From a virus, in the IMG/VR virus record IMGVR_UViG_3300042907_001080, positions 124,001 to 188,000 of that record: a stretch of 64,000 nucleotides of DNA; one strand, written 5' to 3'. Each line of letters begins with the position of its first letter. Positions within the stretch are counted from its first letter, which is position 1. A model generated the notes under the pieces. That model ran no database searches and was not told where the DNA came from. It saw only the letters and a list, made by a program, of their open reading frames with translations. A program made the position numbers and the translations under genes. Positions 13,809 to 38,231 of this stretch are shown piece by piece.

Positions 13809-14789
13809 ATGCCAGCTGTTAACAGTACAATAGTCCAAGCAGACTACAATTCGATAAGAAACAAAATCGTTGCTGTGTTAGGCAACGGCAGTGGAAACTC
13901 TGGATATGGTCAACAGGTCAGAATAGTCTCTACAGAAGTTCTTGAAGGACAACGAGTCACCATTAACGAATGGGCAAATCTACGATTTGACATCATCAAT
14001 GCCTACAAGCACATCAACGGATCTAATCCGACTACGGCTGTGGTCGCAGACGGTGATACTATTAGATATACCAGTTCATTTACTCCTGATACCGGAACTC
14101 TCGACGTACCGCAAAAGCAATATGATGATTGGGCCGATAATATCACAACTAATAGATTTACGATAGCCACTAGTGAATCAGCTACCACAGCAGCGACCAC
14201 ATCAAGCAGAACCGGAGCATGGATCAGCCAGTGTGAATGCGTCATACAGTTTTATTGGACCAATGCCAATGATGCTAGATACTGGTTCAATAGTGGCGGT
14301 AAAATTAGGATCAGTGCGAGTCGAACCGGTGGGGTGCTTGGCACCCAGCAAAACACTAGTTGGACTAGTCTTCTCAGTGCTGCAGGTACACAGAACTTTG
14401 GCGGTGCTGTGCCTAGTGCAGGAACTTCTCCTAACGATGGCACCAATTGGTATAAAACCACTAATACTTTTCAAACATTTTATACAGCCACAGCCAGTAG
14501 CCCTTACGGATCTAACAACTATCGATTACAAGCTAGATGTGTTGATGTACCTTCGAACAGCGGAGGCACATCGGCTAGCGGTGAAATACGAGTGTTGTTC
14601 ACAGACGGATACACCGACTCGGGTGCAATAGGTCCTCCGTTTTTAAACCCACCCCCGGGTGATGACATAGATGGTACTCTCACAGTGAGTGTTTCGACAT
14701 TATTTGCCACGGGTATCATGGCTCCTAGCAGCGCAGTATTCACCGTAACTCAACCCACAGTTTCTATTGGGGCTGTCACTGGCTCGTAA
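13809..14789 (+). CDS. Conserved virion-type protein, paralogue B
   Basis: A 326-residue paralogue of the preceding gene. It has the same block order: GYGQQV, WANLRFDIINAYKHI, ITTNRF, ARYWFNSGGKIRISAS, SSPYGSNNYRLQA, a Pro-rich hinge and DIDGTLTVSV. CTTAAATA just upstream is a weak late-box variant. The two genes are a tandem duplication with substantial divergence. A structural role is inferred only from position at the end of the fibre block. Confidence 0.75.
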   Translation: MPAVNSTIVQADYNSIRNKIVAVLGNGSGNSGYGQQVRIVSTEVLEGQRVTINEWANLRFDIINAYKHINGSNPTTAVVADGDTIRYTSSFTPDTGTLDVPQKQYDDWADNITTNRFTIATSESATTAATTSSRTGAWISQCECVIQFYWTNANDARYWFNSGGKIRISASRTGGVLGTQQNTSWTSLLSAAGTQNFGGAVPSAGTSPNDGTNWYKTTNTFQTFYTATASSPYGSNNYRLQARCVDVPSNSGGTSASGEIRVLFTDGYTDSGAIGPPFLNPPPGDDIDGTLTVSVSTLFATGIMAPSSAVFTVTQPTVSIGAVTGS

Positions 14790-14813: not shown

Positions 14814-14821
14814 TATAAATA
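14814..14821 (+). promoter_or_regulatory. Late promoter TATAAATA
   Basis: An exact match to the T4-type late promoter octamer, in a 59-base intergenic gap. It is followed 18 bases later by a strong ribosome site (AAGGAG) and the ATG at 14849. T4-like late promoters consist of little more than this -10-like octamer, so the match is meaningful. It would drive the gene at 14849 and possibly the glycosyltransferases beyond. Confidence 0.7.
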
Positions 14822-14848
14822 AACTACGCAGTTTATCAAGGAGAACTC

Positions 14849-15199
14849 ATGAACGCACAGTTAAAAGCTGTATTGGATTTTGCCAATTATCAGCAGACTT
14901 TTTCAATCCACAAAAAAATTCTCAAAGAACGCACAGCTGCCAAACTGATGTACGGTTTCTCCGGCGGGCTGTTTGCCATTGATAGAAATCTGTTGACATT
15001 TGTTGAAATGCTGTGTAGCAAAGGCAGAGTTTCTGGAACGGTGCTGTTAGACGTCAATGAAAATCCCATATTGATAGAAAATCTAGAAGCTTTTCGTGAT
15101 GAAATCTTCAGCAGATATTTCGAAGTCACTAATGAATACTTTCAAGAATTTGATAAAATCAAGAAATCTAGATCTGTAGAAAAACTTATCACACAATGA
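14849..15199 (+). CDS. Small conserved phage protein, function unknown
   Basis: A 116-residue soluble protein with a strong AAGGAG ribosome site and its own late promoter. Mixed helical and strand composition, no Cys motif (two Cys in all), no signal peptide. Blocks such as DFANYQQTFSI, KLMYGFSGGLFAID and TFVEML look like those of a conserved T4-like marine phage family, but I cannot name it. Its stop overlaps the next start by four bases (ATGA), coupling it to the glycosyltransferase that follows. Confidence 0.75.
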   Translation: MNAQLKAVLDFANYQQTFSIHKKILKERTAAKLMYGFSGGLFAIDRNLLTFVEMLCSKGRVSGTVLLDVNENPILIENLEAFRDEIFSRYFEVTNEYFQEFDKIKKSRSVEKLITQ

Positions 15200-16056
15200 C
15201 CAATGGCATTTTAATTTTCGCACACAATAATCGTGAAGTAGATTATGGATTATTAGCAGTGATCAGCGGCGGTCTTGCAAAAAAACATCTTAATGTTCCA
15301 GTTTCATTGGTCACAGATCTCAGCACCAAGGAATGGTTGATTGAATCACATACATGGCAGCAGGTTGAAACAGTATTCGAGCATGTGATAATTGTAGATA
15401 AACCTGTCACAGATAATCAACGTGGATTACACGACGGTGTAATCAATAAAAAAATACCATTTTGTAATACCAATAGACACTCTGTATGGGACCTCACACC
15501 CTACGATAGAACGCTACTGATAGACAGCGATTTTTTGATATTCAGTGATAATCTAAACAAATATTGGAATGTGGAAGCTGACGTAATGATAGGTGATTCG
15601 ATCAACGATATCTACAGTGAAGAAAGATTAGGCTACCTTGATAGATATGTCTGTGAAACCAGCTGTAAAATGTATTGGGCAACCACAGTGATGTTCACGA
15701 AAAATCCACAATCTAAACTGTTTTTTGATACTGTGAATTTAGTCAAAGAAAATTACAAGCACTATGCTGATGTCTTCCGATTCGATCACAGACAATATCG
15801 AAATGACATAGCGTTTAGTGTTGCCAAACACATGCTAGATGGATTTGAGAACATGCACACACCAACACTCCCACCCGTGTTATCAGTCATGGACAAAGAC
15901 ATACTCACTGCTGTCGACAAAGACAAATTAACATTCTTGATTGATCATCGATTAGATGCCACATATTGTGCAGCATCTGTGACTGGAGTTGATATACATG
16001 TGATGAATAAACAAAGTATATTGAGACATCGACAACAGTTAATGGAGTTGATATGA
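15196..16056 (+). CDS. GT-A-like glycosyltransferase
   Basis: A 286-residue protein resembling GT8-type retaining glycosyltransferases. Near the N-terminus is ILIFAHNN followed by a segment that would bind nucleotide-sugar. The metal-binding DxD is at residues 110-112 (LLIDSDFLIF). The region around 245-285 (FLIDHRLDATYCAAS, DIHVMNK) probably completes the active site. No membrane segment is present, so it acts in the cytoplasm. It is linked by ATGA overlaps to genes on both sides. Target unknown: fibre proteins just upstream, host surface sugars or a small molecule are all possible. Confidence 0.72.
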   Translation: MTNGILIFAHNNREVDYGLLAVISGGLAKKHLNVPVSLVTDLSTKEWLIESHTWQQVETVFEHVIIVDKPVTDNQRGLHDGVINKKIPFCNTNRHSVWDLTPYDRTLLIDSDFLIFSDNLNKYWNVEADVMIGDSINDIYSEERLGYLDRYVCETSCKMYWATTVMFTKNPQSKLFFDTVNLVKENYKHYADVFRFDHRQYRNDIAFSVAKHMLDGFENMHTPTLPPVLSVMDKDILTAVDKDKLTFLIDHRLDATYCAASVTGVDIHVMNKQSILRHRQQLMELI

Positions 16057-16892
16057 ACTTTGGATATCTGTTGTTTGTAGCACACTATGATGACATTGAT
16101 TATCTCAAGTGCGCCTATGCTCTAGCTTTGAGTATAAAAACCACTCAAAAACCAGGGTATGACAGGGTGGCACTGGTAATTGACAACAAAGAATCACTTG
16201 CAAAATTATCAAGTCCGTGGGTGTTTGACACAGTGATCGAATGGGACCAAGAGAAATATTGGGATGGCAGATCATGGATGGACCAACTGTCTCCGTTTGA
16301 TCACACAGTATGCCTTGATGCTGATATGTTATTCCTACGAGATTACAGTCATTGGATTGATTATTTTATTGCCAACAGCGAATTGTATGTGGCCAATCAG
16401 GTCTATACCTATAGAGGCGAAACAATCACAGATCGCACATATAGAAAAACCTTTGACAGAAATTGTCTGCCGGATTTATACTCCATGTGGACTTTTTTCT
16501 CTAAAGGATCTGTGCTATGCCAAGAATTTTTTGAATTAGGTCGACAGATTATAAAAAATCCCCGCGAATTCGCCAATCAGTTTTTAAGTGAACACAGGCC
16601 TAAGGTAATTGGCACAGATGAAGCATTCGCATTGGCTGCTAACATACTAGACATCACTGACGACATTGCCTACGATTTACCATTTCCTCGAGTAGTGCAT
16701 ATGAAACCAATGCTGCAAAAATGGCCATGGCCGGCTGATACTTGGAGCGATCATGTGGGATTTTATCTTAATGCAGACGCTAGACTAAAGATAGGAAATT
16801 TTCAACAGAATGATATTGTGCATTACGTAGAGAAAAATTTAATCACAAATGAGTGTATACATATCTTGGAGACTAAAGCATGGAAACTATAG
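16053..16892 (+). CDS. GT-A-like glycosyltransferase
   Basis: A 279-residue protein with the same general fold signature as the gene before it. It has a start like GYLLFVAHYDDIDYLKCAYALALSIK, then VALVIDN, then a DxD at residues 89-91 (VCLDADMLFL). Later blocks include YSMWTFFSKGS and GTDEAFALAANI, which match GT8-like layouts in which an acceptor-site Asp follows. Cytoplasmic, no signal peptide. It is the second gene of a coupled glycosyltransferase series. Substrate is not predictable. Confidence 0.72.
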   Translation: MNFGYLLFVAHYDDIDYLKCAYALALSIKTTQKPGYDRVALVIDNKESLAKLSSPWVFDTVIEWDQEKYWDGRSWMDQLSPFDHTVCLDADMLFLRDYSHWIDYFIANSELYVANQVYTYRGETITDRTYRKTFDRNCLPDLYSMWTFFSKGSVLCQEFFELGRQIIKNPREFANQFLSEHRPKVIGTDEAFALAANILDITDDIAYDLPFPRVVHMKPMLQKWPWPADTWSDHVGFYLNADARLKIGNFQQNDIVHYVEKNLITNECIHILETKAWKL

Positions 16893-17497
16893 AAGATTTT
16901 GATAAATGGCTGAGAGAATACAAGCCACCAATTACACAGTATGTAGCGGTGTTTGATCCAAATACGGGTCAAGTTATCAGCGTGGGGCCAGATCATGCTT
17001 TTGCAGATCAAAAACATATAGTGCAGATATCACAAGAAATTGCTGAATCCATAATCACAGCTGAAATACAGATACACAACTGTCAAATAAATGTAGAGTC
17101 AGGACAGTTAGACATAGCTGAAAAAAAGACACTAAACAAATTAGATGATGTGTTGCATAGAATTCCTGATATCAAATATTCAGATCAAATTGAATCGGAT
17201 ATACATATAACATATAATTCAAAAAACAAATATTTGAAAATTCAACTGTCTACAGAATACGGCGGAACCAAAAAATACAAAGGCAACGACGGAACAAGAA
17301 AATTTATTTGGGATGGTAGCACCGATCTGGATTTTTTAATCACAGATTACAACGATCCCAACTTGATTTTTCAGATGTTTTCTGTTAAACTAAATGAACT
17401 AATAGGGCATAATGTAACAATTAAAAATATTGACTATGATAAGTTTAGTGTGTATACAAGACGCCTATTTAAAAATTATGTGATTGAATATAAATGA
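16880..17497 (+). CDS. Hypothetical protein in glycosyltransferase cluster
   Basis: A 205-residue protein overlapping the preceding gene by 13 bases and the next by 4 bases, so it belongs to the same operon. The N-terminal block (ITQYVAVFDPNTGQVISVGPDHAF) resembles small beta domains found near phage fibre or tail proteins; the rest is helical and polar. No catalytic motif is visible. It could be a scaffold or acceptor protein for the surrounding enzymes, but nothing in the sequence proves this. Confidence 0.65.
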   Translation: METIEDFDKWLREYKPPITQYVAVFDPNTGQVISVGPDHAFADQKHIVQISQEIAESIITAEIQIHNCQINVESGQLDIAEKKTLNKLDDVLHRIPDIKYSDQIESDIHITYNSKNKYLKIQLSTEYGGTKKYKGNDGTRKFIWDGSTDLDFLITDYNDPNLIFQMFSVKLNELIGHNVTIKNIDYDKFSVYTRRLFKNYVIEYK

Positions 17498-18411
17498 AAG
17501 TAATTGAATTTGATGTAGTTTTTTTAAGTTACGACGAACCTAACGCAGATCTGCATTATGCTGACTTGTGTAATAAAGTACCTTGGGCTAAACGTATTCA
17601 CGGAGTCAAAGGATCAGACCACGCCCATAAAGCCGCAGCAGAAGCCAGTGAAACAGATTGGTTTATCACTGTTGATGCTGATAATATTGTAGATCCTAGA
17701 TTTTTTAATATCGACCTTGACATGAGTGATCCCAAGATACAGGTCTATGGTTGGTGCGGCCGCAATGCAATTAATGGTCTTCGATATGGCAACGGTGGAT
17801 TGAAAATCTGGCGTAAAGATTTTGTTCTTAACATGAAAACGCATGAAAACTCCAACAGTGATCGCGGCCAAGTAGACTTTTGTTGGGAAGATGGGTATAG
17901 AAATTTTCCATTGACGTTCAGTGAAAGCGTTATCACAGGATCACCATTCCAAGCATGGAGAGCAGGATTCCGTGAAGGTGTTAAGATGACTTTGCTAGAC
18001 GGGGTCAAAGTTCCTCCTATGGAAATTAAAGAACGCATATGGTGGCACAATATCCATAGACTGCGCATGTGGTCAACTGTGGGTGCTCACGAAGAAAACG
18101 GAATTTATGCAGTATATGGTGCTAGATTAGGAACATGGATGGCTAATTGCACACAGTGGAATTATGTCGATGTTCGAGATTTTGAAATACTCAGAGATAT
18201 ATGGAATCAATACGGTAAACCGTATGAAGATGTAAACGGTGATGGTCTAGTAGATGAGATTAAAAATTTAGGCGAAAAAATAAAAATGAGTTTGGGATTA
18301 GATTGGCCGTTTCTTGATGCGCAGCAAAGTAAATTTACTTTAGATTTGTATAATGAAACCATGAATCTCAACGACACTTATTTTAAGATGCCGGTGCCAG
18401 CCAATGTATGA
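17494..18411 (+). CDS. GT-A-like glycosyltransferase (DVVFLSYDEPNAD family)
   Basis: A 305-residue protein with a GT2-like layout: DVVFLSYDEPNAD at residues 7-19, HGVKGSDHAH at 36-45, and TVDADN at 59-64 as the DxD. Later come RNAINGLRYGNGGLKIW, an aromatic acceptor-side block (WWHNIHRLRMWSTVG) and an EF-hand-like DVNGDGLVDE near residue 248. The same glycosyltransferase domain is repeated at the C-terminus of the next gene, where HGVKG, DGD and YGNGGVKL align. Cytoplasmic. It overlaps the next gene by eight bases. Acceptor unknown. Confidence 0.72.
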   Translation: MKVIEFDVVFLSYDEPNADLHYADLCNKVPWAKRIHGVKGSDHAHKAAAEASETDWFITVDADNIVDPRFFNIDLDMSDPKIQVYGWCGRNAINGLRYGNGGLKIWRKDFVLNMKTHENSNSDRGQVDFCWEDGYRNFPLTFSESVITGSPFQAWRAGFREGVKMTLLDGVKVPPMEIKERIWWHNIHRLRMWSTVGAHEENGIYAVYGARLGTWMANCTQWNYVDVRDFEILRDIWNQYGKPYEDVNGDGLVDEIKNLGEKIKMSLGLDWPFLDAQQSKFTLDLYNETMNLNDTYFKMPVPANV

Positions 18412-20713
18412 TATTTTTTATGTTTCAAAAGGCGAAGGAAATACTAAAGATTGGAATGCAATAAAGTCTAGGTATCCCCTTGCTCAAAAATTAACAAACA
18501 TAAAGTCTTACGAAGAAATTCGATCTAAATCTTTTACAAAAATGTTCTGGGTAATCTGGGACGATATAAATCTTACAGAATTTAATTTATTAGATTATAA
18601 AGCCACTAAGTGGGATGACATGTATGTTCACGTTTTTAAAAACGGAGAACACTATGATGGTATTTGTTTGTTTCCTAAATCGTTGACGATTTCTCAGCGT
18701 GAATTTCATCATAGATTTTTTACAGCTAAAAAAGAAATTGATATTGTTGCTAGTATTCCAAAACAATATAAAACATACAGTCCTAATACATTCAACGAAT
18801 ACCAACACATAACCGACGACATGTTTTGGCTAGTATGGCCAGAAGTTACTGTAACTGACAAATCAATTTTTGACATATATTTTAGTCATCATAATAGTTA
18901 TGACCGCAGAGAAAATCATGTATTTAAAAATCTCTGCAATAGTGTTGAATCTTATCTCAGCGGAGTAATCCTTTGCAGCAAATATAAACCTTTATCAAAT
19001 CGAGAGTTTGATAAACAGTATGCTGTAGATAAAAAAGAGCACAACAAAGTTGTCAGCAAATATCAATACCCAGTTTATAAAATTAATTCTTATGCTGATT
19101 ATTTAGAGATTATTGACAATGAAAAACAACAAATGTTTTGGTGTCAGTGGCCTAGTATAGAAATTATTGACGATACAATATTTGATTTTTATCTTGATCC
19201 TAACAATGGTGCATTAGATTATGATAGGCAAGAAAATCATGTATTTAAAAATTTATGCAATGATAAAGAATCATATCTAAGCGGAGTTGTTTTATTTTCT
19301 AAATCTAAAATTATTTCTAAGAAAGAATTTGATAGAAAATATTTAATTGACAAAAAAGAACATACCCGCATAGTTAGTAGGTATAGATATAATCGATACA
19401 ATATTTCCAGTTACGAAGAATATAAACAAATTATAGAAACAGAAACTCAACCTTTATTCTGGGGTATCTGGCCCGAAATAGCTGTTACAGATAATTCTGT
19501 TTTTGATTTATATTTTGATCCCAATGACGGAAAATACGATCAAGATAGAAAAACAAATCATATGTTTAAAAATTTGTGTAACGATAAAGAAACTTATCTT
19601 TGTGGATTAGTATTGTTTTCAACAACACAAGTTATTTCACAGAAAGAATTTAATAGAAGATATTTAATAGATAAAAAAGAACATGCAGAAGTTGTAAGCC
19701 GTTACAGATATAATAGATATGTGTTATCGTCATATGACGAGTATACCGACATTGTTAAAAAAGAAACCCAACCACTATTTTGGGGAATCTGGCCCGAAAT
19801 AGATATTATCGACGAATCGATATTTGATTTATATTTTGATCCCAATGACGGAAAATACGAACACGATCGAAAAGAAAATCATACATTTAAACACTTATTC
19901 AATGAAAAAGAAATTTTTGTTAACGGTGTAGTGTTATTGTCTAAAGATAAAATAATTGGTCAAAGAGAATTTAAACACAGATTTTTAATTGAGAAAAAAG
20001 AACATGATAGATTAGTATCTAAACATTCTTTATATGATGTTGTTTTTATTTCTTATAACGAACCCAATGCCGATGAAAACTGTAACAAGTTATTAGAAAT
20101 GTGTCCAAGAGCAAAACGTATTCACGGAGTTAAAGGAATTCACCAGGCGCATATACAAGCAGCTAAAATGTGCAATACTGACATGATATGGATCGTTGAC
20201 GGTGATGCTATTGTCGAAAATGATTTTAATTTTAATTTAGTTATGAGTAGTTACGACATAGACTGTGTTCATGTTTGGAAAAGCCGCAATCCTATTAACA
20301 ATCTAGAATACGGCAACGGAGGTGTTAAGTTATTACCAAGACAATTAACAATATCTGTTGATGTTAATTCGCCCGATATGACCACTAGCATATCGAAAAA
20401 ATTTAAAGCTATGAATACTGTGTCTAACACGAATTCATTTAACACAGATGAATTTGCTACATGGAGATCAGCATTTAGAGAATGTTGTAAACTAGCTAGT
20501 CGTGTAATCGAAAGACAATACGAGGAAGAAACTACACATCGTTTAGATGTATGGTGCTCAGTTGGTGTTGATAAACTATTTGGCAAATATGCAATTAAAG
20601 GTGCTCAGGCAGGTAGAGAATACGGCGAAACTAACAAAAACAATCCAGAGGCCCTTAAGAAAATTAATGACTTTGATTGGTTAAAGGAACAGTTCAGTGG
20701 AATACAATCGTAA
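18404..20713 (+). CDS. Repeat-containing protein fused to a C-terminal glycosyltransferase domain
   Basis: A 769-residue protein. An N-terminal divergent copy (about residues 1-122) is followed by four clearer repeats of 100-108 residues (about 123-222, 224-331, 332-438 and 439-541). Each repeat contains a block like PLFWGIWPEI, then FDLYFDPNDG, FKNLCNDKE, and a tail like KKEHxxxVSRYRYN. Residues 543-769 are a glycosyltransferase domain homologous to the preceding gene (DVVFISYNEPNAD, HGVKG, VDGD at 598-601, YGNGGVKL). Repeats 3 and 4 share an exact 38-bp DNA stretch, so duplication or gene conversion is recent. The repeats may bind the acceptor or position the enzyme; that is inference. Confidence 0.72.
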   Translation: MYDIFYVSKGEGNTKDWNAIKSRYPLAQKLTNIKSYEEIRSKSFTKMFWVIWDDINLTEFNLLDYKATKWDDMYVHVFKNGEHYDGICLFPKSLTISQREFHHRFFTAKKEIDIVASIPKQYKTYSPNTFNEYQHITDDMFWLVWPEVTVTDKSIFDIYFSHHNSYDRRENHVFKNLCNSVESYLSGVILCSKYKPLSNREFDKQYAVDKKEHNKVVSKYQYPVYKINSYADYLEIIDNEKQQMFWCQWPSIEIIDDTIFDFYLDPNNGALDYDRQENHVFKNLCNDKESYLSGVVLFSKSKIISKKEFDRKYLIDKKEHTRIVSRYRYNRYNISSYEEYKQIIETETQPLFWGIWPEIAVTDNSVFDLYFDPNDGKYDQDRKTNHMFKNLCNDKETYLCGLVLFSTTQVISQKEFNRRYLIDKKEHAEVVSRYRYNRYVLSSYDEYTDIVKKETQPLFWGIWPEIDIIDESIFDLYFDPNDGKYEHDRKENHTFKHLFNEKEIFVNGVVLLSKDKIIGQREFKHRFLIEKKEHDRLVSKHSLYDVVFISYNEPNADENCNKLLEMCPRAKRIHGVKGIHQAHIQAAKMCNTDMIWIVDGDAIVENDFNFNLVMSSYDIDCVHVWKSRNPINNLEYGNGGVKLLPRQLTISVDVNSPDMTTSISKKFKAMNTVSNTNSFNTDEFATWRSAFRECCKLASRVIERQYEEETTHRLDVWCSVGVDKLFGKYAIKGAQAGREYGETNKNNPEALKKINDFDWLKEQFSGIQS
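19502..19539 (+). repeat. Exact 38-bp repeat, copy 1
   Basis: Identical base for base to 19823-19860, 321 bp away (107 codons, one protein-repeat unit). Both copies lie in frame inside the same gene and encode FDLYFDPNDGKY. Confidence 0.9.
19823..19860 (+). repeat. Exact 38-bp repeat, copy 2
   Basis: Second copy of the in-frame repeat at 19502-19539. The spacing equals one protein repeat, so unequal recombination between copies would delete or add a whole repeat without a frameshift. Confidence 0.9.
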
Positions 20714-22130
20714 TATAAAAGGCAACGAACTTAAAGAGATTAACGGTAGATATGAATCTCGATATCTTGCTGATGCTGACTACGTGTATAAAGAACTAAA
20801 CAAAGTTAGTCCGAGCTTTTGTCTTGCTAAATGGTATAATGTTAGTCTACACATTCCTACGGGAAAAACACATAGTTGTTATCATCCTAGGACACATCAA
20901 GTTCCTTTAGAAGAAGTTCGAATTGATGTTAGTGCATTACATAATACAAAATATAAAAAAGAACAACGCAAATTAATGTTAGCTGGAGAACGTCCTAAAG
21001 AATGTGAATTTTGTTGGCAGATAGAAGATAGTGGTACGCAGTTAAGTGATCGTGCATATCGAAGTAAAGATGTTTACGAACACGGTTTAATAGAAGAAGC
21101 ACAGTTAGTAGAAAATCCTAATCCACGCTACGTTGAAGTAAATTTTAATCAAGCCTGTAATTTTAAATGTAGTTATTGCAGCCCTCATCTAAGTACAGCA
21201 TGGCACAACGATATTCAACATAACGGTGCGTTTATTTTAAAAGATCGTTGGCACAATGATATTAATTGGATGAAGAGTCTTAACATAGATAACGGGCCAA
21301 ACAATCCTTACTTGCTAGCGTTCTGGGAATGGTTGCCACAGATATATCCAACACTACATACATTCCGTATGACTGGCGGTGAGCCATTGATGGATAAGAA
21401 CACGTTCCGTATGTTTGACTATGTTAAAGAACATCCTAAAGAAGATCTGCATCTAAGTATTACTAGTAACTGTTGTCCGCCGGGTGATCAGTGGGCTAAA
21501 TTTATGACTAGTCTTAAAGAGATTACAGATGTAGATGCAATTGATCATTTTATGTTGTATTGTAGTTTAGACTCTTGGGGTAATCAAGCAGAATATATTC
21601 GCAACGGTATGGATTTTAATCTACTGTATAATAATGTATGTGATTATTTGCAAAATAGTGATAAACACAGTTTAACATTTATTATAACTTTTACCGCATT
21701 AAGTTATACAGGATTTTATTCTTACATAGAAAATATTTTAAAACTTAGAAAACAATATAACAAAGGACGTCAATTAGTTTGGTTTGATGTTCCACAGTTA
21801 TTAGATCCTGATTTTTTAAATCCTAAATTATTACCAGAAATGGTTAGTGAATTAGAACGCACTATAGAATTTATGAAATACAATCCTGAAACACGCTGGA
21901 ACGAATTTAAAGGATTTAGTGATTTTGAAATTAGTAAGGTTCAGCGTTTAATTGATTGGATTAAATCGGATACAGGTTTTAATCGTGAGCTGGCGATGGA
22001 AAATTTTTATTTGTTCTTTAGCCAGCATGATGCACGTAGAGATACAAATTTTTTAAATACTTTTCCAGAGTTAGAAAATTTCTGGAAAGAATGCGAGGTA
22101 AAATGCAAGAAAGCAATACACAAGCAATGA
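20697..22130 (+). CDS. Radical SAM enzyme with N-terminal SPASM/twitch-like cysteine domain
   Basis: A 477-residue protein starting at GTG, supported by AAAGGA eight bases upstream. The CX3CX2C radical-SAM cluster motif is CNFKCSYC at residues 154-161, and MTGGEPL later supplies the SAM-binding GGE. The N-terminal part carries a second Cys set (C42, C61, C103, C106, the last two in CEFCW) that resembles a twitch/SPASM auxiliary Fe-S domain placed before the core. LHNTKYKKEQRK and the N-terminal block are closely shared with the gene at 22797, so these two are paralogues. The substrate is unknown; the family includes peptide- and small-molecule-modifying enzymes. Confidence 0.82.
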   Translation: MEYNRNIKGNELKEINGRYESRYLADADYVYKELNKVSPSFCLAKWYNVSLHIPTGKTHSCYHPRTHQVPLEEVRIDVSALHNTKYKKEQRKLMLAGERPKECEFCWQIEDSGTQLSDRAYRSKDVYEHGLIEEAQLVENPNPRYVEVNFNQACNFKCSYCSPHLSTAWHNDIQHNGAFILKDRWHNDINWMKSLNIDNGPNNPYLLAFWEWLPQIYPTLHTFRMTGGEPLMDKNTFRMFDYVKEHPKEDLHLSITSNCCPPGDQWAKFMTSLKEITDVDAIDHFMLYCSLDSWGNQAEYIRNGMDFNLLYNNVCDYLQNSDKHSLTFIITFTALSYTGFYSYIENILKLRKQYNKGRQLVWFDVPQLLDPDFLNPKLLPEMVSELERTIEFMKYNPETRWNEFKGFSDFEISKVQRLIDWIKSDTGFNRELAMENFYLFFSQHDARRDTNFLNTFPELENFWKECEVKCKKAIHKQ

Positions 22131-22807
22131 CGATTTTCATATACGGTGATAGTTTTAGCATGTCTAGTGAAGTGAGATGCACTTCGTGGATTGATCAATT
22201 ACATGGAAAACATCAACTAATAAATCGATCAATTGCAGGTGCAAGCAATCATTATATATTTTTAAGATTCATGGAAGACTTAGACCGTATAACACCTGAC
22301 GATTTAGTTGTTTTTTGTTGGTCTGAGAATCAAAGATATTATCAGAAAGATTCTAAGAAGACACAAGAAATTCACCAGTTGTATCATAAACACTTTTATA
22401 ATCAACGTCTTCTTGAAATGCAGTCTGATATGTATTTGGATAAGATCGAAGCGGTTGTTAAAGAACGAAAGATCCGCATGTTGTTTTTCTGGGCTTTCCC
22501 TTCCGGATACGGTGATTCGAGCAATTGGGTATCTACTAAATTTGTATCCGAGGATAGCTTAGTTTATTCGCACACATTTGAAAACGAAGTTAGGCCAGCT
22601 CTGATATATTTCTCTAGAATAGAAATACCAAAAAAATATTTAAACACAGAAGAAAAACTGCTTGAGTTTGCCTCTAAAGATATGAGACCTAATCATATGG
22701 CTAACCAAAAATTGCACGACGAACTATTTAAAATAGTAGATGATGTTTTTCATCATAGACTAGCAGGTCAAATTAATTTAAAAAACAGGTTACATAATGA
22801 GTCATAA
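22127..22807 (+). CDS. SGNH/GDSL-like hydrolase
   Basis: About 226 residues if started at the ATG that overlaps the previous stop (ATGA). An in-frame ATG at 22103 has a better ribosome site (GAGG) and would add eight residues. Block I is FIYGDSFS near the N-terminus with the candidate nucleophile Ser, followed by SIAGASNHYIF (block II-like Gly and Asn). The C-terminal RPNHMANQKLHDEL may hold the catalytic Asp/His. No signal peptide, so it acts in the cytoplasm. It sits between two paralogous radical-SAM genes. A role in adding or removing acyl groups on a modified sugar or peptide is plausible but not shown. Confidence 0.68.
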   Translation: MTIFIYGDSFSMSSEVRCTSWIDQLHGKHQLINRSIAGASNHYIFLRFMEDLDRITPDDLVVFCWSENQRYYQKDSKKTQEIHQLYHKHFYNQRLLEMQSDMYLDKIEAVVKERKIRMLFFWAFPSGYGDSSNWVSTKFVSEDSLVYSHTFENEVRPALIYFSRIEIPKKYLNTEEKLLEFASKDMRPNHMANQKLHDELFKIVDDVFHHRLAGQINLKNRLHNES

Positions 22808-24155
22808 ATTACAATATATTAAAAACGTAAGAGATAGATTAAACAAAGTCGGTACGGGATTCTGTGCAATGAAGTGGTTGCACCAAACTCTGTATCTACA
22901 CACCGGTGATAATCACAGTTGCTATCATCCGCGCCCACATCATATTGGTTTAGATGAAATTGCAGCAGATCCTAGTGCATTACACAATACAAAATGGAAA
23001 AAAGAACAGCGTAAAACCATGTTAGAAGGCGGTCGCCCTAACGAATGCCAATATTGTTGGAATATTGAAGATCTACCAGGCGAGCATATCAGTGACAGAA
23101 TGATACATAGTTCCAGTGATTTCAGCGAACCACTGATTGAAAAACTAGCAGAATTACCTTGGGATGCTCCGGTTAATCCTCGTTACTTAGAAGTGAGTTT
23201 TGGTAACGGATGTAATTATCGTTGCGGTTATTGCTGCCCACAAGCAAGCACCATGTGGACAGAAGAAATCAAGAAGCATGGCAATTACGATCTAACCTAT
23301 AATCAGTATGGCATTGAGTTTATGACCAACGGAACATACTACGGTCCTAAAGACGAAAATCCCTACATTGAAGCATTCTGGAAATGGTGGCCAAGTTTAA
23401 AAAATGACTTACATACTCTGCGTATTACTGGCGGCGAACCTCTAATGAATCCAGGGGCTATGCAGTTTTTTGATTTGCTAGAAACAGAACCAAGTCCTCA
23501 TTTAGAAATTACATTAAACAGTAATCTAGGTGTAACCTTTGATCGTGTTGACAGACTTATTCAAAGAGTAACTAGTCTTGTTCGTCAAAAGAAGATCCGT
23601 AAATTTAGTTTCTTTACAAGCATTGATAGTTGGGGCGAGCAAGCAGAATATATGCGTACAGGACTTAAATGTGATCACTGGGAACGCAATATGATAGAAG
23701 TAATCAAGGCAGGTGCTACTGTAAATTTGATGTGTACCTATAATGTCTTGTGCGTTACTAACTTTCAACAACTATTAGAAAAGGTAATCGAATGGCGCGA
23801 GAAGTTTGGATTTGAGTCAGTGTCTTTTGATACACCGTACTTGAAAGAACCACCACATTGGATGATTAACATTCTCACAGATGATTTTATAGCACATCAA
23901 GAACGTCAATTACAATTTATTGTAGACAATAAAAAATGGTTCACCGACGTCGAATATGAAAAAATGCTTCGTGTTACAGACTATATGAAAGAGAATCCGG
24001 TAAGCAAAGAAAAGATTCATGCTGGCAGAAGAGACTTTTATAGTTTTTTTAAAGAAAATGACAAACGTCTAGGTACAGATTTACTAAAGACATTTCCAGA
24101 ATACACAGAATTTTATAATCTGTGCAAACAAATTTACGAAAATTATGACAAATAA
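22797..24155 (+). CDS. Radical SAM enzyme with N-terminal SPASM/twitch-like cysteine domain
   Basis: A 452-residue paralogue of the gene at 20697. The core motif is CNYRCGYC at residues 139-146, followed by ITGGEPLM. The N-terminal Cys set is C23, C42, C84 and C87 (CQYCW). HSCYHPRPHH and LHNTKWKKEQRK are nearly the same as in the paralogue. It overlaps the genes on both sides by 11 bases, so it is part of one transcription unit. Two such similar enzymes in one operon suggest sequential or alternative modification of related substrates, which remains inference. Confidence 0.82.
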   Translation: MSHKLQYIKNVRDRLNKVGTGFCAMKWLHQTLYLHTGDNHSCYHPRPHHIGLDEIAADPSALHNTKWKKEQRKTMLEGGRPNECQYCWNIEDLPGEHISDRMIHSSSDFSEPLIEKLAELPWDAPVNPRYLEVSFGNGCNYRCGYCCPQASTMWTEEIKKHGNYDLTYNQYGIEFMTNGTYYGPKDENPYIEAFWKWWPSLKNDLHTLRITGGEPLMNPGAMQFFDLLETEPSPHLEITLNSNLGVTFDRVDRLIQRVTSLVRQKKIRKFSFFTSIDSWGEQAEYMRTGLKCDHWERNMIEVIKAGATVNLMCTYNVLCVTNFQQLLEKVIEWREKFGFESVSFDTPYLKEPPHWMINILTDDFIAHQERQLQFIVDNKKWFTDVEYEKMLRVTDYMKENPVSKEKIHAGRRDFYSFFKENDKRLGTDLLKTFPEYTEFYNLCKQIYENYDK

Positions 24156-25347
24156 ATCCACTTACTGTGTGAATCCATACATGAATCTAAGTATTCATCC
24201 TAAAGGCATAGTTAAAACATGCTGCATGAGTACTCGAGAATTGGTTACTGACTCAGGGAAGACTACCATTAATAATGCTAGTATTTTGGAGTTTTGGAAT
24301 AGTAAAGATCGTCAACAAATGATTAGCAATCTTAATAACGGGGTTAAAATACCGGAATGCACATTTTGCTGGCAAGAAGAGGAAGCCGGCAAGGAAAGCA
24401 AACGAATTAGAGACAATAAAACGTATGCAAGTATTATTACTGATAGTGACATGTTACCAGTAGTTGTAGACCTAAGTATGGGAAATCTATGCAATATAAA
24501 ATGTAGGATATGTAGCCCAACACACTCTACTCCTTGGATGATTGAAGAAGCTAGTATACATTTTCCAAATAATAAACAAGCATATTTAAAACAACCGAGG
24601 TGGCAAACTGTTAAAGATAGTTTTGATTACGAAAATAAATTTCTGTGGGATGATATTACTGCATTATTGCCCAATGTAACTAAATTTGATTTTGCCGGAG
24701 GCGAACCTTTTTATATCGAAAAACACTGGAGTATTGTAAACAAATGCGTTGAGGAAGGGTGGAGTAAAAAACAACACATTCATTATAACACTAATGGCAC
24801 TATCTACCCAGAGAAATATATGTCATTGCTAGAAGAGTTTAGACTTGTGGATATACAAATCAGCAGTGATGGTGTCGGTAAGAAATTTGAATATTGCCGT
24901 CATCCAGCTGTTTGGGAAGAAGTAGAAGAAAATATTGATAAGTTTATTTCTGCAAAAAATAATAGCAAAACTGAATGGTTGCTATCTGCTTGTATTTCTG
25001 TTTCAGCATTTAATGTATATGATTTTTTTGAAACATTTGAGCATTATGCCAGCAAGGGCATCGGTATATATGTTAATATGGTGCACGATCATCATAGTAT
25101 CAAAGTGTTGCCTTGTGAATTAAAACAATCAATAATTAATAGACTCAATGCATCTGAATCTAAATATCTGCCACAACAGTGGAACAATGATAGAAATATG
25201 GTTATACAATACCTATCTAACACAGAATTTTTTGAATCAGACTGGATTAATTTTTGGGCAGAACTCGAAAAGCGAGATACAATAAGAAAAGAATCTTTCA
25301 AAGAGATCTTTCCTGAATATTTCAACGAAATTAAAAAATACTTATAG
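24145..25347 (+). CDS. Radical SAM enzyme with N-terminal SPASM/twitch-like domain
   Basis: A 400-residue protein. The N-terminal domain reads like a SPASM module moved to the front: CVNPYMNLSIHPKG, then CC at residues 26-27, a helix with ILEFWNS, and CTFCW at 72-76. The radical-SAM motif CNIKCRIC is at 116-123, with FAGGEPFY as the GGE element. An NTNG block (HYNTNGTIYPE) follows, as in other members. It overlaps the upstream paralogue by 11 bases. It is most similar in layout to the gene at 26575. Confidence 0.82.
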   Translation: MTNKSTYCVNPYMNLSIHPKGIVKTCCMSTRELVTDSGKTTINNASILEFWNSKDRQQMISNLNNGVKIPECTFCWQEEEAGKESKRIRDNKTYASIITDSDMLPVVVDLSMGNLCNIKCRICSPTHSTPWMIEEASIHFPNNKQAYLKQPRWQTVKDSFDYENKFLWDDITALLPNVTKFDFAGGEPFYIEKHWSIVNKCVEEGWSKKQHIHYNTNGTIYPEKYMSLLEEFRLVDIQISSDGVGKKFEYCRHPAVWEEVEENIDKFISAKNNSKTEWLLSACISVSAFNVYDFFETFEHYASKGIGIYVNMVHDHHSIKVLPCELKQSIINRLNASESKYLPQQWNNDRNMVIQYLSNTEFFESDWINFWAELEKRDTIRKESFKEIFPEYFNEIKKYL

Positions 25348-25355
25348 GATATAAT

Positions 25356-26582
25356 ATGTGGAATGATGCAGTAACACAGGTTCATTGGGAACCAACAGAC
25401 AAATGTAACAGTGGATGTTCTATGTGTCCAAGATATGATTCAAAAGGTTTTGAGATAAGCACATTAGAAAATAAAGAATGGACTTTAGAAAGTTTTAAAA
25501 AAGCATGGTCTGTAAAATTTTTATCGCAATTGCAAAAGATACTTGCTTGTGGTAACTTTGGTGATCCTTGCGCCTGTAGAGAATTTGTAGACATATATGA
25601 ATACTGCAGAGAAATCAATCCAGGCATGGGGCTTGCCTGTAACACTAACGGTAGCCTTAGAAATCCAGCATGGTGGAGTCGGTTAGGGGCTGTGATGCGT
25701 GAAGATCAAAATCTAGGTAACTACTGTACGTTTAGTCTAGATGGACTTGAAGACACAAATCATCTTTATCGTCGAAATACCAACTGGAAAAAAATCATGG
25801 AAAACGCCAAAGCATTTATTGATGCTGGCGGTGTTGCTCATTGGGATTTTATTGTATTTGAGCACAATGAACATCAAGTTGAGGAAGCTAGAGAACTAGC
25901 ACGTTCTATGGGCTTTAAGAACTTTAACGTTAAAAGAACTACCCGTTGGGCAAAATACAAAGACGGTGTTGGGTCATATCCTGTTTATTCCAAAGGCATA
26001 CACTTGTATGATCTTAAACAACCCAATGAAGATAAATTCAAACACAACTTTGAAGATTCGCAATACTTCAAGCAGAGCAAATATCAAAGTATCACGCTGA
26101 ATGATTTTAAAAATATGGTAGGTATCAAGAATGGGGACATGAGATTTGTAAATGGAAAATGGGAAACTATTGATCTAGATTCACTTAACATAGCGTGCCG
26201 CGCAGTCAAAGATGCTAGAATGCATCAACCGCACAATGAAATATTTGTAAGTGCAGGAGGACATGTTGCTCCTTGTTGTTTTTTAGGTTCCGAGCCTATG
26301 ATAGATACCAAAGTTAAAGACCGAGACGAAAATTATATCAGTATGATTAATGCTCAAGGTGGACTACATAGACTTAATATGCATATCAACGATATCTACG
26401 ACATACTGCAATTAGATATTTTCCAGAAATGGATTCCCGACACGTGGGATAACGAAAATGGTAATACTTCAATGCGTCCAGCGAAATGCGGACAATGCTG
26501 TGGTGTAGAATTTAATGGTCTCGATTTTGGAGAACTTGGAAACAAAAAAGATTCATACATTATCAAGGAAAACAATGAATAA
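25356..26582 (+). CDS. Radical SAM enzyme with C-terminal SPASM-like domain
   Basis: A 408-residue protein with the conventional order. The CX3CX2C motif is CNSGCSMC at residues 17-24, close to the N-terminus. A C-terminal Cys-rich region follows (C281, C307-C308 in APCC, and C378-C382 in KCGQCC), which fits a SPASM domain holding auxiliary clusters. FSLDGLEDTNHLYR and ACNTNGS are typical of the superfamily core. It starts with an AGGA ribosome site eight bases after the previous gene. It is the only one of the five not carrying the N-terminal Cys domain, so it may act at a different step. Confidence 0.83.
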   Translation: MWNDAVTQVHWEPTDKCNSGCSMCPRYDSKGFEISTLENKEWTLESFKKAWSVKFLSQLQKILACGNFGDPCACREFVDIYEYCREINPGMGLACNTNGSLRNPAWWSRLGAVMREDQNLGNYCTFSLDGLEDTNHLYRRNTNWKKIMENAKAFIDAGGVAHWDFIVFEHNEHQVEEARELARSMGFKNFNVKRTTRWAKYKDGVGSYPVYSKGIHLYDLKQPNEDKFKHNFEDSQYFKQSKYQSITLNDFKNMVGIKNGDMRFVNGKWETIDLDSLNIACRAVKDARMHQPHNEIFVSAGGHVAPCCFLGSEPMIDTKVKDRDENYISMINAQGGLHRLNMHINDIYDILQLDIFQKWIPDTWDNENGNTSMRPAKCGQCCGVEFNGLDFGELGNKKDSYIIKENNE

Positions 26583-27774
26583 TTTATGTGTCTTACCTTT
26601 TAATAGCATAAGCATAGATGCAGTCGGGCAATTTAGAGCTTGTTGTAGCAGTGGAACCAATGGATTCAAATTATATGCCAAGGATTTAACTCCTGAAGAA
26701 TTCATTAATAATAAAAAAATTGTAGAACTAAGACAGGATTTTTTAAATGGACAAAAGCCTAGTAACTGTGATCGATGCTGGAACATGGAGGCTATCGGGA
26801 ATCCTAGTTTTAGACACGTAGCAAATGAAAATCAATCTTATGGAATAAAAAATAACAAGACGATTGAATTTAAAAGTCACATAGGTTTTGAAAATATACA
26901 GTATCTTGATATTACACTAGGAAATAAATGTAATCTCGCCTGTCGAATGTGCAGTCCTTATAGCAGTTCTTTAGTTGCCAAACAATGGAATATCATTAAT
27001 AAATCACAGGGTCACAAGGAAATCATCGAATTTGATAGATCTACCAAAGACAAAATACTTGACACAATCAACAAATCTGTTAACTTAACAGAAATATACA
27101 TGTTGGGAGGAGAACCACTGGTATCTGAATTTCACGATGAGATTGTTGAACTGCTCATTGCGAACGGTAGATCAAAAAATTTAATCTTGCATTACAATAC
27201 AAACCTACAAATTGATGCTGAACGTAAATTAGAAGTATGGGAAAAATTTAGAAATATAGATTTAAGCATCAGTATAGACGGCCATGGTGATACTTATGAG
27301 TATATAAGGTGGCCTGGAAATTGGGCTAAATTACATAAAAATATAAACCTTGTAATTGATTATTCTAAACAGAATAAGAATATACTACCTGGAATAGCCA
27401 CCACTGTGCAAAATTTAAATGTTGATAACTTAGACCAACTTATTGATAGCATGCATGAACTATCAGATAATAAACTCAGCTTTTATTTTATTCCGGTAGT
27501 TCAATTCAATGAGCTTGACATAACACCCTTGCATGTTTTGGAAGAGTCACACAGCAAATTACAAAAGTATAGAAATACATCGTTGCATCGAGCAGATGAA
27601 TTATTAAATATGATTAAGGAAGCAATAGATAAATCTAAAAATGTGGACTCTAAAAGGGTGGTCGAATTTTTTAAAATGCAAAAAAACTATGATATGATAC
27701 GTAATCAAAATTTATTCAAAATCAAACCTCATTTTATAGAATACGCAAAACAATTCAAGGTAAACACATGGTAA
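26575..27774 (+). CDS. Radical SAM enzyme with N-terminal SPASM/twitch-like domain
   Basis: A 399-residue protein if started at ATG 26575, chosen because AAGGAA lies just before it and because MNNLCVLPFNS aligns with the start of the paralogue at 24145. The N-terminal Cys set is C5, C23-C24 and C65/C68 (CDRCW). The core motif is CNLACRMC at 119-126 and LGGEPLV carries the GGE element. It overlaps the preceding gene by eight bases. Probably one of a set of enzymes acting on a common substrate; the substrate is unknown. Confidence 0.82.
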   Translation: MNNLCVLPFNSISIDAVGQFRACCSSGTNGFKLYAKDLTPEEFINNKKIVELRQDFLNGQKPSNCDRCWNMEAIGNPSFRHVANENQSYGIKNNKTIEFKSHIGFENIQYLDITLGNKCNLACRMCSPYSSSLVAKQWNIINKSQGHKEIIEFDRSTKDKILDTINKSVNLTEIYMLGGEPLVSEFHDEIVELLIANGRSKNLILHYNTNLQIDAERKLEVWEKFRNIDLSISIDGHGDTYEYIRWPGNWAKLHKNINLVIDYSKQNKNILPGIATTVQNLNVDNLDQLIDSMHELSDNKLSFYFIPVVQFNELDITPLHVLEESHSKLQKYRNTSLHRADELLNMIKEAIDKSKNVDSKRVVEFFKMQKNYDMIRNQNLFKIKPHFIEYAKQFKVNTW

Positions 27775-28610
27775 AACTTACTATCAAAGAAAATACATTT
27801 AATGTAAAAAGAATCGTAGCATTCGGTTGCAGTTTTACAGCCGGGACCGAAATACTAGATTATCAATTAAATCCCTATTTTGTAGATTTAAAAAATAAAT
27901 TAGATGCGTATCAGTGGTGGGAAAAACTTAAAAAAGATCCAGATCAGATGAAGCTACAGCTAGAAATTCGAAAACAAGAACCCAACCATTCTTGGCCGGC
28001 ACATCTAGCTTCTTACTTGGGTGTGAACTTTATAAATTATGCAAAGCCTGGTAATAGTAATGAACTCATGTGTTGGCAGATAGAACAAAAATTAAATTCG
28101 GGAGAAATTACCGATGACGATTTAATTTTGGTCGGAACAACCGGAACCCAGCGATCTATGTTTTTCTCTAGTACCTATCCAGAACCTGTGCCGTTTTTAC
28201 TTTCAAATATCGAATCGTACAAAGTCGAACTATCAGAACATATAACAAAATATTTCACAGACGATAGACTCTTGTGGAATTATTATAGAGATTTAAAAGT
28301 ATTCGAATCAATAAAACAGAAAATAAATGGCAGATTGTTTGTGATCCCTATGGAACAAATTCGTGAAGAATTATGTCTTTGGCCCAGCACACACGCTTAC
28401 GGCACATATCGGGTAGCGTCACTTGAGAATGCTTTATTTTTTAACAAAATAATAAATCAATTACATAATTCTCAACTATTTGCAACTACAGATTGTTGTT
28501 TATACGATTTTAAAACGGAAAAAACTACATTACCACATGGACATTTAAATGAGGATGCTCATAAATCTTTCGCCGAACAGCTTTACAAAGAGCATGTTAT
28601 TATCAACTAA
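27768..28610 (+). CDS. SGNH/GDSL-like hydrolase
   Basis: A 280-residue protein. Block I is VAFGCSFTAGTE near residue 20, with Ser as candidate nucleophile. Block II is AKPGNSNELM, and the C-terminal PHGHLNEDAHKSFAEQL contains the probable catalytic His. Cytoplasmic. It ends the plus-strand island and overlaps the last radical-SAM gene by seven bases. Together with the gene at 22127 it makes two SGNH-like proteins in the same cluster, perhaps acyl esterases or transferases. Confidence 0.68.
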   Translation: MVKLTIKENTFNVKRIVAFGCSFTAGTEILDYQLNPYFVDLKNKLDAYQWWEKLKKDPDQMKLQLEIRKQEPNHSWPAHLASYLGVNFINYAKPGNSNELMCWQIEQKLNSGEITDDDLILVGTTGTQRSMFFSSTYPEPVPFLLSNIESYKVELSEHITKYFTDDRLLWNYYRDLKVFESIKQKINGRLFVIPMEQIREELCLWPSTHAYGTYRVASLENALFFNKIINQLHNSQLFATTDCCLYDFKTEKTTLPHGHLNEDAHKSFAEQLYKEHVIIN

Positions 28611-28632
28611 CCAGAATAGAGAAATTGTTCTG

Positions 28633-29283
28633 CTATAATTTAATTAATGGATTTGTTATTATTGCACATAGATCAAGTTTCCAGAGTCCGTTGTGTTCGA
28701 TATTAAAATAGACTAATTCTAAATGATGTTCTTTGGCAAATCTGTTGGCACACTTGTTAATATGTTCATACATACAATCGTCGACAAATATAATACCGGG
28801 CTTCATGTTCGCATAACAATATTCTAAGTCAGTTTTTAAAACTTCGTCCTTATGGCTACCATCGAGTATTATACAACTCATTTGAGAAATATCAACATTA
28901 TGCACTACATCTGTAATTAACGTAATATTATCGCACTCTTTTTTATACAATTTTTGAATATGTCTAAAAGATGCGGGCTCTAACATAAGTTCGGGATACT
29001 TCGATCGTAGGTGCATTAAATGATCTGAGAGACCTTTCATTGCGAAGTATTCTTCAAAGTTGCTAGGGTCAACGGTTGTTATTGAATTGCTTGGGAATTC
29101 TTTTGCTAGTATATATGTAGTGCCGCCTGCAAATGTTCCAATTTCTAATATTTGTGTTAACTTATAATCATTGATTGCTTTGATAATAGGTGTTAACTTA
29201 TTCATGGGCATCAACGACATTGGTCGAGATGTTAAAATCTCTATTACTTCTTTTTCTACAGATGAATCATCGACTCTATACAT
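28633..29283 (-). CDS. Class I SAM-dependent methyltransferase
   Basis: About 216 residues from ATG 29283; TTG 29298 is an alternative. The SAM-binding motif I is ILEIGTFAGGTTYIL, followed by SITTVDPSN as motif II. CIILDGSHKDEVLKTDLEYCYANMKPGIIFVDDC resembles the Methyltransf_24 / cephalosporin-hydroxylase-like group. It lies on the opposite strand, tail to tail with the radical-SAM island and only 22 bases from it, and may be a late addition to the same pathway or an unrelated accessory gene. Substrate unknown. Confidence 0.78.
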   Translation of the reverse strand: MYRVDDSSVEKEVIEILTSRPMSLMPMNKLTPIIKAINDYKLTQILEIGTFAGGTTYILAKEFPSNSITTVDPSNFEEYFAMKGLSDHLMHLRSKYPELMLEPASFRHIQKLYKKECDNITLITDVVHNVDISQMSCIILDGSHKDEVLKTDLEYCYANMKPGIIFVDDCMYEHINKCANRFAKEHHLELVYFNIEHNGLWKLDLCAIITNPLIKL

Positions 29284-29311
29284 AAGTAAATCTAACAATG
29301 CTTTTAATCAT

Positions 29312-29617
29312 CTAGAACAATTTATTAGTTTCGCTGGCAATATCAGTTTTCAAGCGGGTCACATCAACTTTAAAATCGATCTTTTTGATTTCATCCTTGT
29401 ATTCTTGGAGTGTGTTAAGCAATACGTCAGCGATGCTTTCGGAAGTTTGTTTAGTCAATTCATTTTTTACATCGATTTCCCATACTCTGCCATCTATAAA
29501 ATCCAGTCGTACTGAATCCAGATAGGCTACCGGCATGGTATTCATGTAGAGATCTTCAAAAACCTCCGGCCATTCTTTTACAAGATGGCGCGGAGGTTTG
29601 AACAAGGGATTAGGCAT
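29312..29617 (-). CDS. Conserved phage protein, function unknown
   Basis: A 101-residue soluble protein with an N-terminal block PPRHLVKEWPEVFEDLYMNTMPVAYLDSV and a helical C-terminal half. I believe it belongs to a family found in T4-like cyanophages but cannot assign a role. It overlaps the preceding gene (29610) by eight bases, so the two are probably coupled. Confidence 0.75.
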   Translation of the reverse strand: MPNPLFKPPRHLVKEWPEVFEDLYMNTMPVAYLDSVRLDFIDGRVWEIDVKNELTKQTSESIADVLLNTLQEYKDEIKKIDFKVDVTRLKTDIASETNKLF

Positions 29618-38118: not shown

Positions 38119-38231
38119 TATATTTCCTTAATAAAGTATTTTGATGCAGGGTATTGCACCTGCAACCACTCTAACAAGCCCGCTTCAACTGGTAAGCGAA
38201 CGCTATCAAACTTGTTAGTAATGTATCTCAT
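38118..38231 (-). CDS. Very small protein (37 residues) between folE and membrane gene
   Basis: A 37-codon frame whose ATG overlaps the folE stop (ATGA) and whose stop overlaps the next ATG (TAATG). The product starts MRYITNKFDSVRLPVEAGLL and ends in a charged tail. The perfect tiling argues that it is translated. The same DNA also has strong inverted repeats (38171-38218 and 38145-38164), so an RNA-structure role is possible as well. Confidence 0.55.
   Translation of the reverse strand: MRYITNKFDSVRLPVEAGLLEWLQVQYPASKYFIKEI

Follow-up and report, generated by a model that had tools for sequence, protein, structure and literature searches.

The window analysed here, bases 124001-188000 of a 281,658-base IMG/VR virus record (64,000 bases), carries an island of glycosyltransferases (GTs) and radical S-adenosylmethionine (radical-SAM) enzymes beside tail-fibre genes. 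Gene orders in relatives show the island to consist of a fixed core and an exchange zone behind it. The same enzyme partnership, once fused into a single protein, occurs in chromosomes of predatory, Bdellovibrio-type bacteria, so that the island's probable task is to make an unusual surface sugar and to tailor it. In our preferred reading, with a probability of about 0.4, a host-type glycan tailored by radical chemistry is attached during assembly to the fibre of the phage itself or to the fast-evolving protein x16880, the two predicted acceptors.

Two scans of viral contigs were made, one anchored on a pair of twitch-type radical-SAM genes (320 relatives) and one on GT17494 (at least 597 relatives; genes are referred to by the positions in Table 1). 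Each scan retained its best 80 loci, so the samples lean to close relatives; 72 of the GT17494 loci were non-redundant. In these 72 loci, the order fibre-h14849-GT8-GT8-x16880-GT2-GT2, the last GT2 bearing repeats, was kept at 98-100% of positions, and it held under both anchors. A radical-SAM gene directly follows GT18404 in 52 of 64 loci and lies within five genes of it in 33 of 33. After GT18404, gene content varies up to the border genes h29312 and h29610. Each of the 69 complete loci (near-copies included) has a radical-SAM gene of the CYHP type; 24145/25356 is present as a pair in 41 and one of two SGNH types in 29, and other loci have other SGNH families or epimerase-, dehydrogenase- or methyltransferase-like genes in this zone. 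Exchange zones hold many SGNH families and deoxysugar-type enzymes, unscanned open reading frames (ORFs) having been named by eye, and in several relatives the radical-SAM block is inverted to the opposite strand. In one relative (L121) the zone carries genes resembling rSa, rSb and MTc (read by eye), which belong to a second radical-SAM island of the phage (island 2) described below, and modules seem to move between the two islands. As for whether the set recurs in phage and bacterial genomes, which the earlier sequence-only reading of this DNA had posed as its check, homologues of the GT core and the twitch radical-SAM gene do not occur one by one in unrelated gene surroundings.

Pairwise identities across 42 dereplicated loci, with h29610 as backbone reference gene, divide the island into two evolutionary units, the upstream core and a radical-SAM pair. 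The genes from the fibre to GT17494 track h29610 (r 0.84-0.92). Genes 24145 and 25356 track each other (r=0.95) and all else at -0.03 to 0.24; most loci have either the window-like type of this pair or one 30-38% alike. Plain identity correlations of the upstream genes were rejected as a sign of coupling to the fibre, because the backbone gene correlates equally, and a partial Mantel test was therefore run. Given h29610, the fibre co-varies with h14849 (0.41), GT15196 (0.44) and x16880 (0.47; p=0.002 each, 500 permutations); for GT16053, GT17494 and the radical-SAM genes this test (16-17 loci) showed no such co-variation. The ratio of nonsynonymous to synonymous substitution rates is mostly 0.02-0.15 in close comparisons, and up to about 0.3 in x16880, which indicates purifying selection and hence that the gene set is more than chance.

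Bacterial counterparts were found mainly in the phylum of a Bacteriovoracaceae genome used in the scans, for which the name Bdellovibrionota was inferred. The CYHP radical-SAM type occurs in 35 of 144 genomes of this phylum, versus 1/249 and 1/148 in two others, where in each case the one hit is the seed genome itself. One of these hits is a contig (L312) in which fibre and GT genes are ordered as in the phage; the second is a contig of 5.5 kb with 75% identity to the phage protein. Relatives of GT17494 were present in 11/192 genomes of the phylum (0/346 and 1/399 in others) and those of rSa in 11/192 versus 0/249 in another. Eight of nine bacterial loci combine GT17494 and/or GT18404 types with rSa, rSb, rSd, MTc or CYHP radical-SAM genes. 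The contigs of several of the nine measure 0.3 to 2 Mb, and some loci stand near genes for GT2, flavin adenine dinucleotide (FAD) enzymes and membrane proteins. At L324:16389-18293 (minus strand), in a Bdellovibrionota genome, a single ORF joins a SPASM-type radical-SAM part, related to rSb and 25356, to a GT18404-type domain. From this fusion and the repeated co-localisation we infer that GT2-type and radical-SAM enzymes act in one pathway, also outside phages.

Locus L318, which adjoins a PheT-like gene, follows the phage order with a fibre-like gene, h14849, both GT8 types, a 163-residue gene standing where x16880 would be, GT17494 and radical-SAM genes; it could be a chimeric assembly or a phage remnant. 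In the GT17494 tree the phage sequences group together in one clade nested among those of bacteria, and L318 is their sister (Shimodaira-Hasegawa-like approximate likelihood ratio support 97-98). Because long branches are present and the approximately unbiased test does not reject the bacterial sequences as one clade (p=0.63), no direction of transfer is claimed. The shared genes make a Bdellovibrionota host plausible for the phage. Contig L312 carries fibre, GT, SGNH and radical-SAM genes in phage order; both L312 (G006:C10, from a 'Betaproteobacteria' genome) and L122 (from a 'Flavobacteriales' genome) are viral-looking and probably mis-binned phage DNA.

The sequence-only reading had likened the whole row to a biosynthetic or post-translational modification pathway. 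This stands for the GT core and the twitch radical-SAM gene, which co-occur, and is favoured by the GT/radical-SAM fusion. It does not extend to the pair 24145/25356, the SGNH proteins and the methyltransferase, which are accessory: the pair is uncorrelated with the core, the radical-SAM block can be inverted, and in Bacteriovoracaceae about eight twitch-type radical-SAM genes are arrayed near an obgE-like gene without GTs (L309:3651-15647).

The genome itself is that of a 282-kb T4-like jumbo phage, as concluded from its T4-like DNA polymerase, whose nearest relatives are those of Sinorhizobium phage Phosso (50%), Agrobacterium phage Atu_ph07 (47%) and a Vibrio jumbo phage (43%); those of enterobacterial jumbo phages come next. 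Twelve same-strand genes, mostly overlapping, occupy 15196-28610 and encode four GT-A-type GTs, five radical-SAM proteins, two SGNH-like proteins and one unknown protein; a methyltransferase gene stands tail to tail behind them. Every enzyme gene named in the sequence-only reading is present where it had been placed. The overlaps, given there as 4-13 bases, measure 4-17, with two longer ones (40 and 68 bases), probably start-codon artefacts, and one 8-base gap. Its list lacked h14849, x16880 (between the GTs) and island 2 (outside the window).

Table 1 Features of the island and its borders
Feature	Position	Strand	Evidence and remarks
Fibre/virion-type protein	13809..14789	+	First member of conserved block; upstream neighbour of h14849 in 47/48 loci
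TATAAATA late-type promoter motif	14814..14821	+	35 bases before h14849 start
h14849, small conserved protein	14849..15199	+	53/54 loci in order
GT8-like glycosyltransferase 1 (IDSD)	15196..16056	+	Joint profile versus glycogenin; 67/68 loci in order
GT8-like glycosyltransferase 2 (LDAD)	16053..16892	+	Joint profile versus glycogenin; 69/69 loci in order
x16880, fast-evolving, mostly beta	16880..17497	+	70/70 loci in order; median identity 44%; model pLDDT (predicted local distance difference test) 81
GT2-like glycosyltransferase (DADN)	17494..18411	+	Homologous to GT18404 C-terminal domain; Bdellovibrionota homologues
GT with five ~107-residue FWxxW repeats and C-terminal GT2-like domain	18404..20713	+	GT-A fold (predicted structure); 72/72 loci
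CYHP-type twitch radical-SAM protein 1	20697..22130	+	NF033640 307 bits; CxxxCxxC 52/52
SGNH-like, accessory	22091..22807 (likely start 22127)	+	GDS motif only; 5/42 dereplicated loci
CYHP-type twitch radical-SAM protein 2, paralogue of 20697	22797..24155	+	NF033640 295 bits; CxxxCxxC 85/85
Twitch radical-SAM, exchangeable pair member A	24145..25347	+	NF033640 285 bits; 29/42 loci; alternative types exist
SPASM-like radical-SAM, exchangeable pair member B	25356..26582	+	Pfam PF04055 40.6 bits; 32/42 loci
Twitch radical-SAM, accessory	26515..27774 (likely start 26575)	+	NF033640 288 bits; 16/42 loci
SGNH-like, accessory	27768..28610	+	Lipase_GDSL E=0.0017, below cut-off; 13/42 loci
Class I methyltransferase, accessory	28633..29298 (ATG at 29283)	-	PF13578 29.1 bits, above cut-off; 3/42 loci
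Backbone genes h29312 and h29610	29312..30260	-	Right border of exchange zone, outside pathway; border conserved in 69 complete loci

The four GTs were assigned by profile and structure, Pfam being silent or weak for all of them. A joint profile of 15196 and 16053 matched glycogenin (E=6e-8), and the DxD-type motif is kept in 90/91 relatives of the former and 89/94 of the latter; with no match to Pfam GT8, the two are regarded as divergent GT8 members. GT17494 and the C-terminal domain of GT18404 are one family (36% identity, hhalign E=6e-43). The predicted structure of GT18404 (pLDDT 85) matches the GT-A enzymes chondroitin polymerase, ppGalNAc-T and SunS (E about 1e-5 to 1e-4). Its repeats were missed by self-BLAST and revealed by an offset score (period 107); copy number differs between relatives, which are 529 to 1084 residues long in steps of about one repeat. 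Relatives of the four GTs were absent among 50,697 phage records, and a search of cultured phages gave none for h14849 or the fibre. Family searches returned no match for h14849 and none for fibre 13809 itself; genes 8937 and 11088 upstream of the fibre match tail-fibre/virion PHROGs. The fold search of x16880, a candidate acceptor or adaptor, returned only uncharacterised phage proteins and one weak virion-protein match.

Proteins 20697, 22797, 24145 and 26515 score 285-308 bits against NCBIfam NF033640 (N_Twi_rSAM, twitch-domain radical SAM; curated cut-off 170 bits) and are twitch-domain members; this model denotes a protein family, not a system, and states no chemistry. Protein 25356 (37 bits) is a non-member of the other, SPASM-like type, with 37% identity to rSb and kinship to the radical-SAM half of the bacterial fusion. 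CxxxCxxC is intact in all five window radical-SAM proteins. The cysteines C25, C43, C85, C88, C139, C143 and C146, comprising this motif and the N-terminal auxiliary-cluster cysteines, are invariant in nine twitch proteins. The SGNH assignments are the weakest calls of the island.

Island 2, the larger of the two, contributes 13 further radical-SAM genes at 230-262 kb (L011:2176-20000 and L012:973-16544; G000:230176-262544), for a genome total of 18 (CxxxCxxC in ORFs of at least 100 residues), nine of which exceed the twitch cut-off, four in the window and five in island 2. It also encodes aspartyl/asparaginyl hydroxylase-like proteins, a 2-oxoglutarate (2OG) oxygenase, an epimerase, a KedN5-like B12 radical-SAM methyltransferase-type protein, a cold-shock domain fused to glutathione peroxidase (L011:4701-5435) and, by weak matches, aminotransferase-like and amidinotransferase/deiminase-like proteins. 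In relatives of island 2, the anchor ThyX, rSa and MTc are fixed and the remaining content varies. Elsewhere, an array of 27 tRNA genes was noted at L013:1947-8250.

A late promoter between fibre and island had been proposed in the sequence-only reading. The motif TATAAATA, the T4 late-promoter core, is present and conserved in position, and it precedes h14849, not GT15196. The exact motif stands before 21 of 78 distinct h14849 orthologues, at -32 to -37 in 20 cases, whereas among other gene starts it stands before 8 of 2003; most of the other orthologues have at most two mismatches to it at the equivalent position. It was found upstream of no GT, radical-SAM, SGNH or methyltransferase gene in any relative. 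Its count in the window does not exceed chance expectation (4 observed versus 5.3 expected), and only the conserved position is therefore used as evidence. Together with the overlapping genes, this position suggests a single late operon. Between the motif and the h14849 ribosome-binding site (14822-14848), short inverted repeats were seen by eye that seemingly recur in relatives with altered sequence.

The island, fixed in its core and variable towards its end, would thus be a late-expressed locus for building and tailoring a glycan. GT2-type and radical-SAM enzymes would act on one glycan or glycoconjugate, the radical chemistry altering C-H positions of the sugar or of the acceptor, and variety of a serotype-like kind would come from SGNH proteins and methyltransferases that attach or take off acyl and methyl groups. 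The phage-specific GT8 pair, h14849 and x16880 might then, as a weaker proposal, place the host-type glycan on the fibre or x16880, and a virion so decorated could have changed adsorption or be shielded. A glycan on the fibre or x16880 is favoured because the GT2/radical-SAM pathway is shared with bacteria and the phage-specific part goes partly with the fibre. The likeness of the GT8 pair to glycogenin, a protein glycosyltransferase, also counts for fibre decoration, and the absence of strong transmembrane segments among the window island proteins is as expected for a cytoplasmic acceptor.

Several points weigh against fibre decoration. Most Bdellovibrionota loci have no fibre gene, L318 being the exception, so the GT2/radical-SAM part is not fibre-specific, and once the backbone is allowed for, the fibre shows no co-variation with the radical-SAM genes. 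The partial correlations come from 16-17 loci, and linkage of neighbours could yield part of the signal. GT8 families include lipopolysaccharide (LPS) enzymes too. Adjacency of fibre and GT genes is general in marine T4-like host-recognition clusters, for which a change of the host O-chain has been favoured (PMC7029224).

It is possible, if doubtful, that the product instead changes the host envelope (O-antigen, capsule or lipid-linked glycan) through the host's own Bdellovibrionota-type pathway parts, excluding rival phages or altering adsorption. Published readings of phage GT islands prefer such a host-surface change (PMC7029224; PMC7824862), and the exchange zone is as varied as O-antigen loci. 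Bacterial loci L319 and L320 look like envelope-glycan loci, with GT2 enzymes and an amine-oxidase/UDP-galactopyranose-mutase-like FAD enzyme, to which L320 adds a TMEM260-like membrane GT (weak match). However, the island has no membrane protein, flippase or polyprenyl step. The sugar-nucleotide enzymes and membrane assembly proteins of an LPS/O-antigen cluster are absent from the window island, sugar-nucleotide-type enzymes being present only in exchange zones of some relatives. The late-type promoter also speaks against an envelope change, as does the occurrence of the two GT8 types, h14849 and x16880 only with the fibre (in phages and L318).

It is unlikely that the islands serve to produce a small molecule or a modified peptide that would be set free at lysis or act inside the host. 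The 18 radical-SAM genes would suit such a secondary metabolite, as would the amidinotransferase/deiminase-like, aminotransferase-like and KedN5-like proteins and several hydroxylases of island 2, and a comparable cyanophage cluster is predicted to make one (PMC7824862). On the other hand, island 1 is GT-centred and fibre-linked, and neither a transporter nor a precursor peptide was identified, without a systematic search for either. Less likely still, the locus would be a host-recognition hot spot gathering unrelated genes with no shared product; this agrees with the variable exchange zone and with a radical-SAM pair independent of the remainder, but not with the conserved core order, the constant proximity of radical-SAM and GT genes, their fusion or the same partnership in bacteria.

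Hypermodification of phage DNA against host restriction is very improbable for island 1, given its fibre link, its late-type promoter, the resemblance of its GT8/GT2-like enzymes to protein and polysaccharide transferases and the envelope-type genes near some homologous bacterial loci, even though the FolE, QueE-like, QueC-like and ThyX proteins of the phage make base modification plausible elsewhere in the genome. Genes at window positions 33650-34504 and 38228-38974 and at L011:15273-16109 encode a QueE-like protein (PHROG 2076, E=7e-54), a GTP cyclohydrolase I (E=1e-38) and a PP-loop protein resembling QueC, and with them 7-deazaguanine modification of DNA is possible. In addition, a 536-residue ORF with a DSGGYQ motif and no family match (window 41985-43595) could be an enzyme like tRNA-guanine transglycosylase or DpdA.

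Phage-encoded GTs near virion genes modify virion proteins in mycobacteriophages, where radical-SAM enzymes are not known to take part. The island resembles this system in having GTs near virion genes. GTs beside fibres with radical-SAM cassettes, and GT and metabolite-like clusters in jumbo cyanophages, are already known. The host-recognition cluster of pelagimyophages and cyanomyophages is a hypervariable region with tail fibres, GTs and radical-SAM cassettes (PMC7029224). Like it, the island adjoins tail-fibre genes and contains GTs and radical-SAM genes in a T4-like aquatic phage. In contrast, its variability is confined to the part after GT18404, the GT block being fixed, and its GTs lack relatives in the phage records searched; radical-SAM pair exchange and a Bdellovibrionota link were not found described for that cluster. 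The jumbo cyanophages P-SSM2 and S-SSM6a carry LPS-like and secondary-metabolite gene clusters (PMC7824862), likewise a GT/sugar-modification cluster and a second one, theirs with 2OG hydroxylases and methyltransferases. Unlike these, the present island is radical-SAM centred, fibre-linked and shares GT/radical-SAM partners with bacterial chromosomes. Many radical-SAM genes also occur in the T4-like environmental genome TARA_ERS488813_N000010, 12 according to its description (PMC5332604) versus 18 here, and KVP40-type Vibrio phages carry distant relatives (21-26% identity). No link to a conserved GT block was found reported for these genomes in the literature searched. In that literature, mostly without subscription papers, no description was found of the fixed GT core, of the exchangeable radical-SAM pair, of the fusion or of the Bdellovibrionota link.

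Tentatively, an undescribed GT and radical-SAM pathway, with the fusion as its signature, may make a C-H-modified glycan or glycoconjugate in Bdellovibrionota; widespread uncultured T4-like jumbo phages infecting these predators would carry it and vary the product on their fibres or the host surface through exchangeable radical-SAM pairs. The genetic link to Bdellovibrionota offers a predicted host for phages of this widespread group, of which no cultured member turned up in the records searched. Synteny, partners shared with bacteria and a gene fusion link GTs at this locus to one class of the radical-SAM genes that aquatic T4-like phages commonly carry without an assigned role. The locus thereby names a small conserved gene set together with a candidate acceptor, the fibre or x16880.

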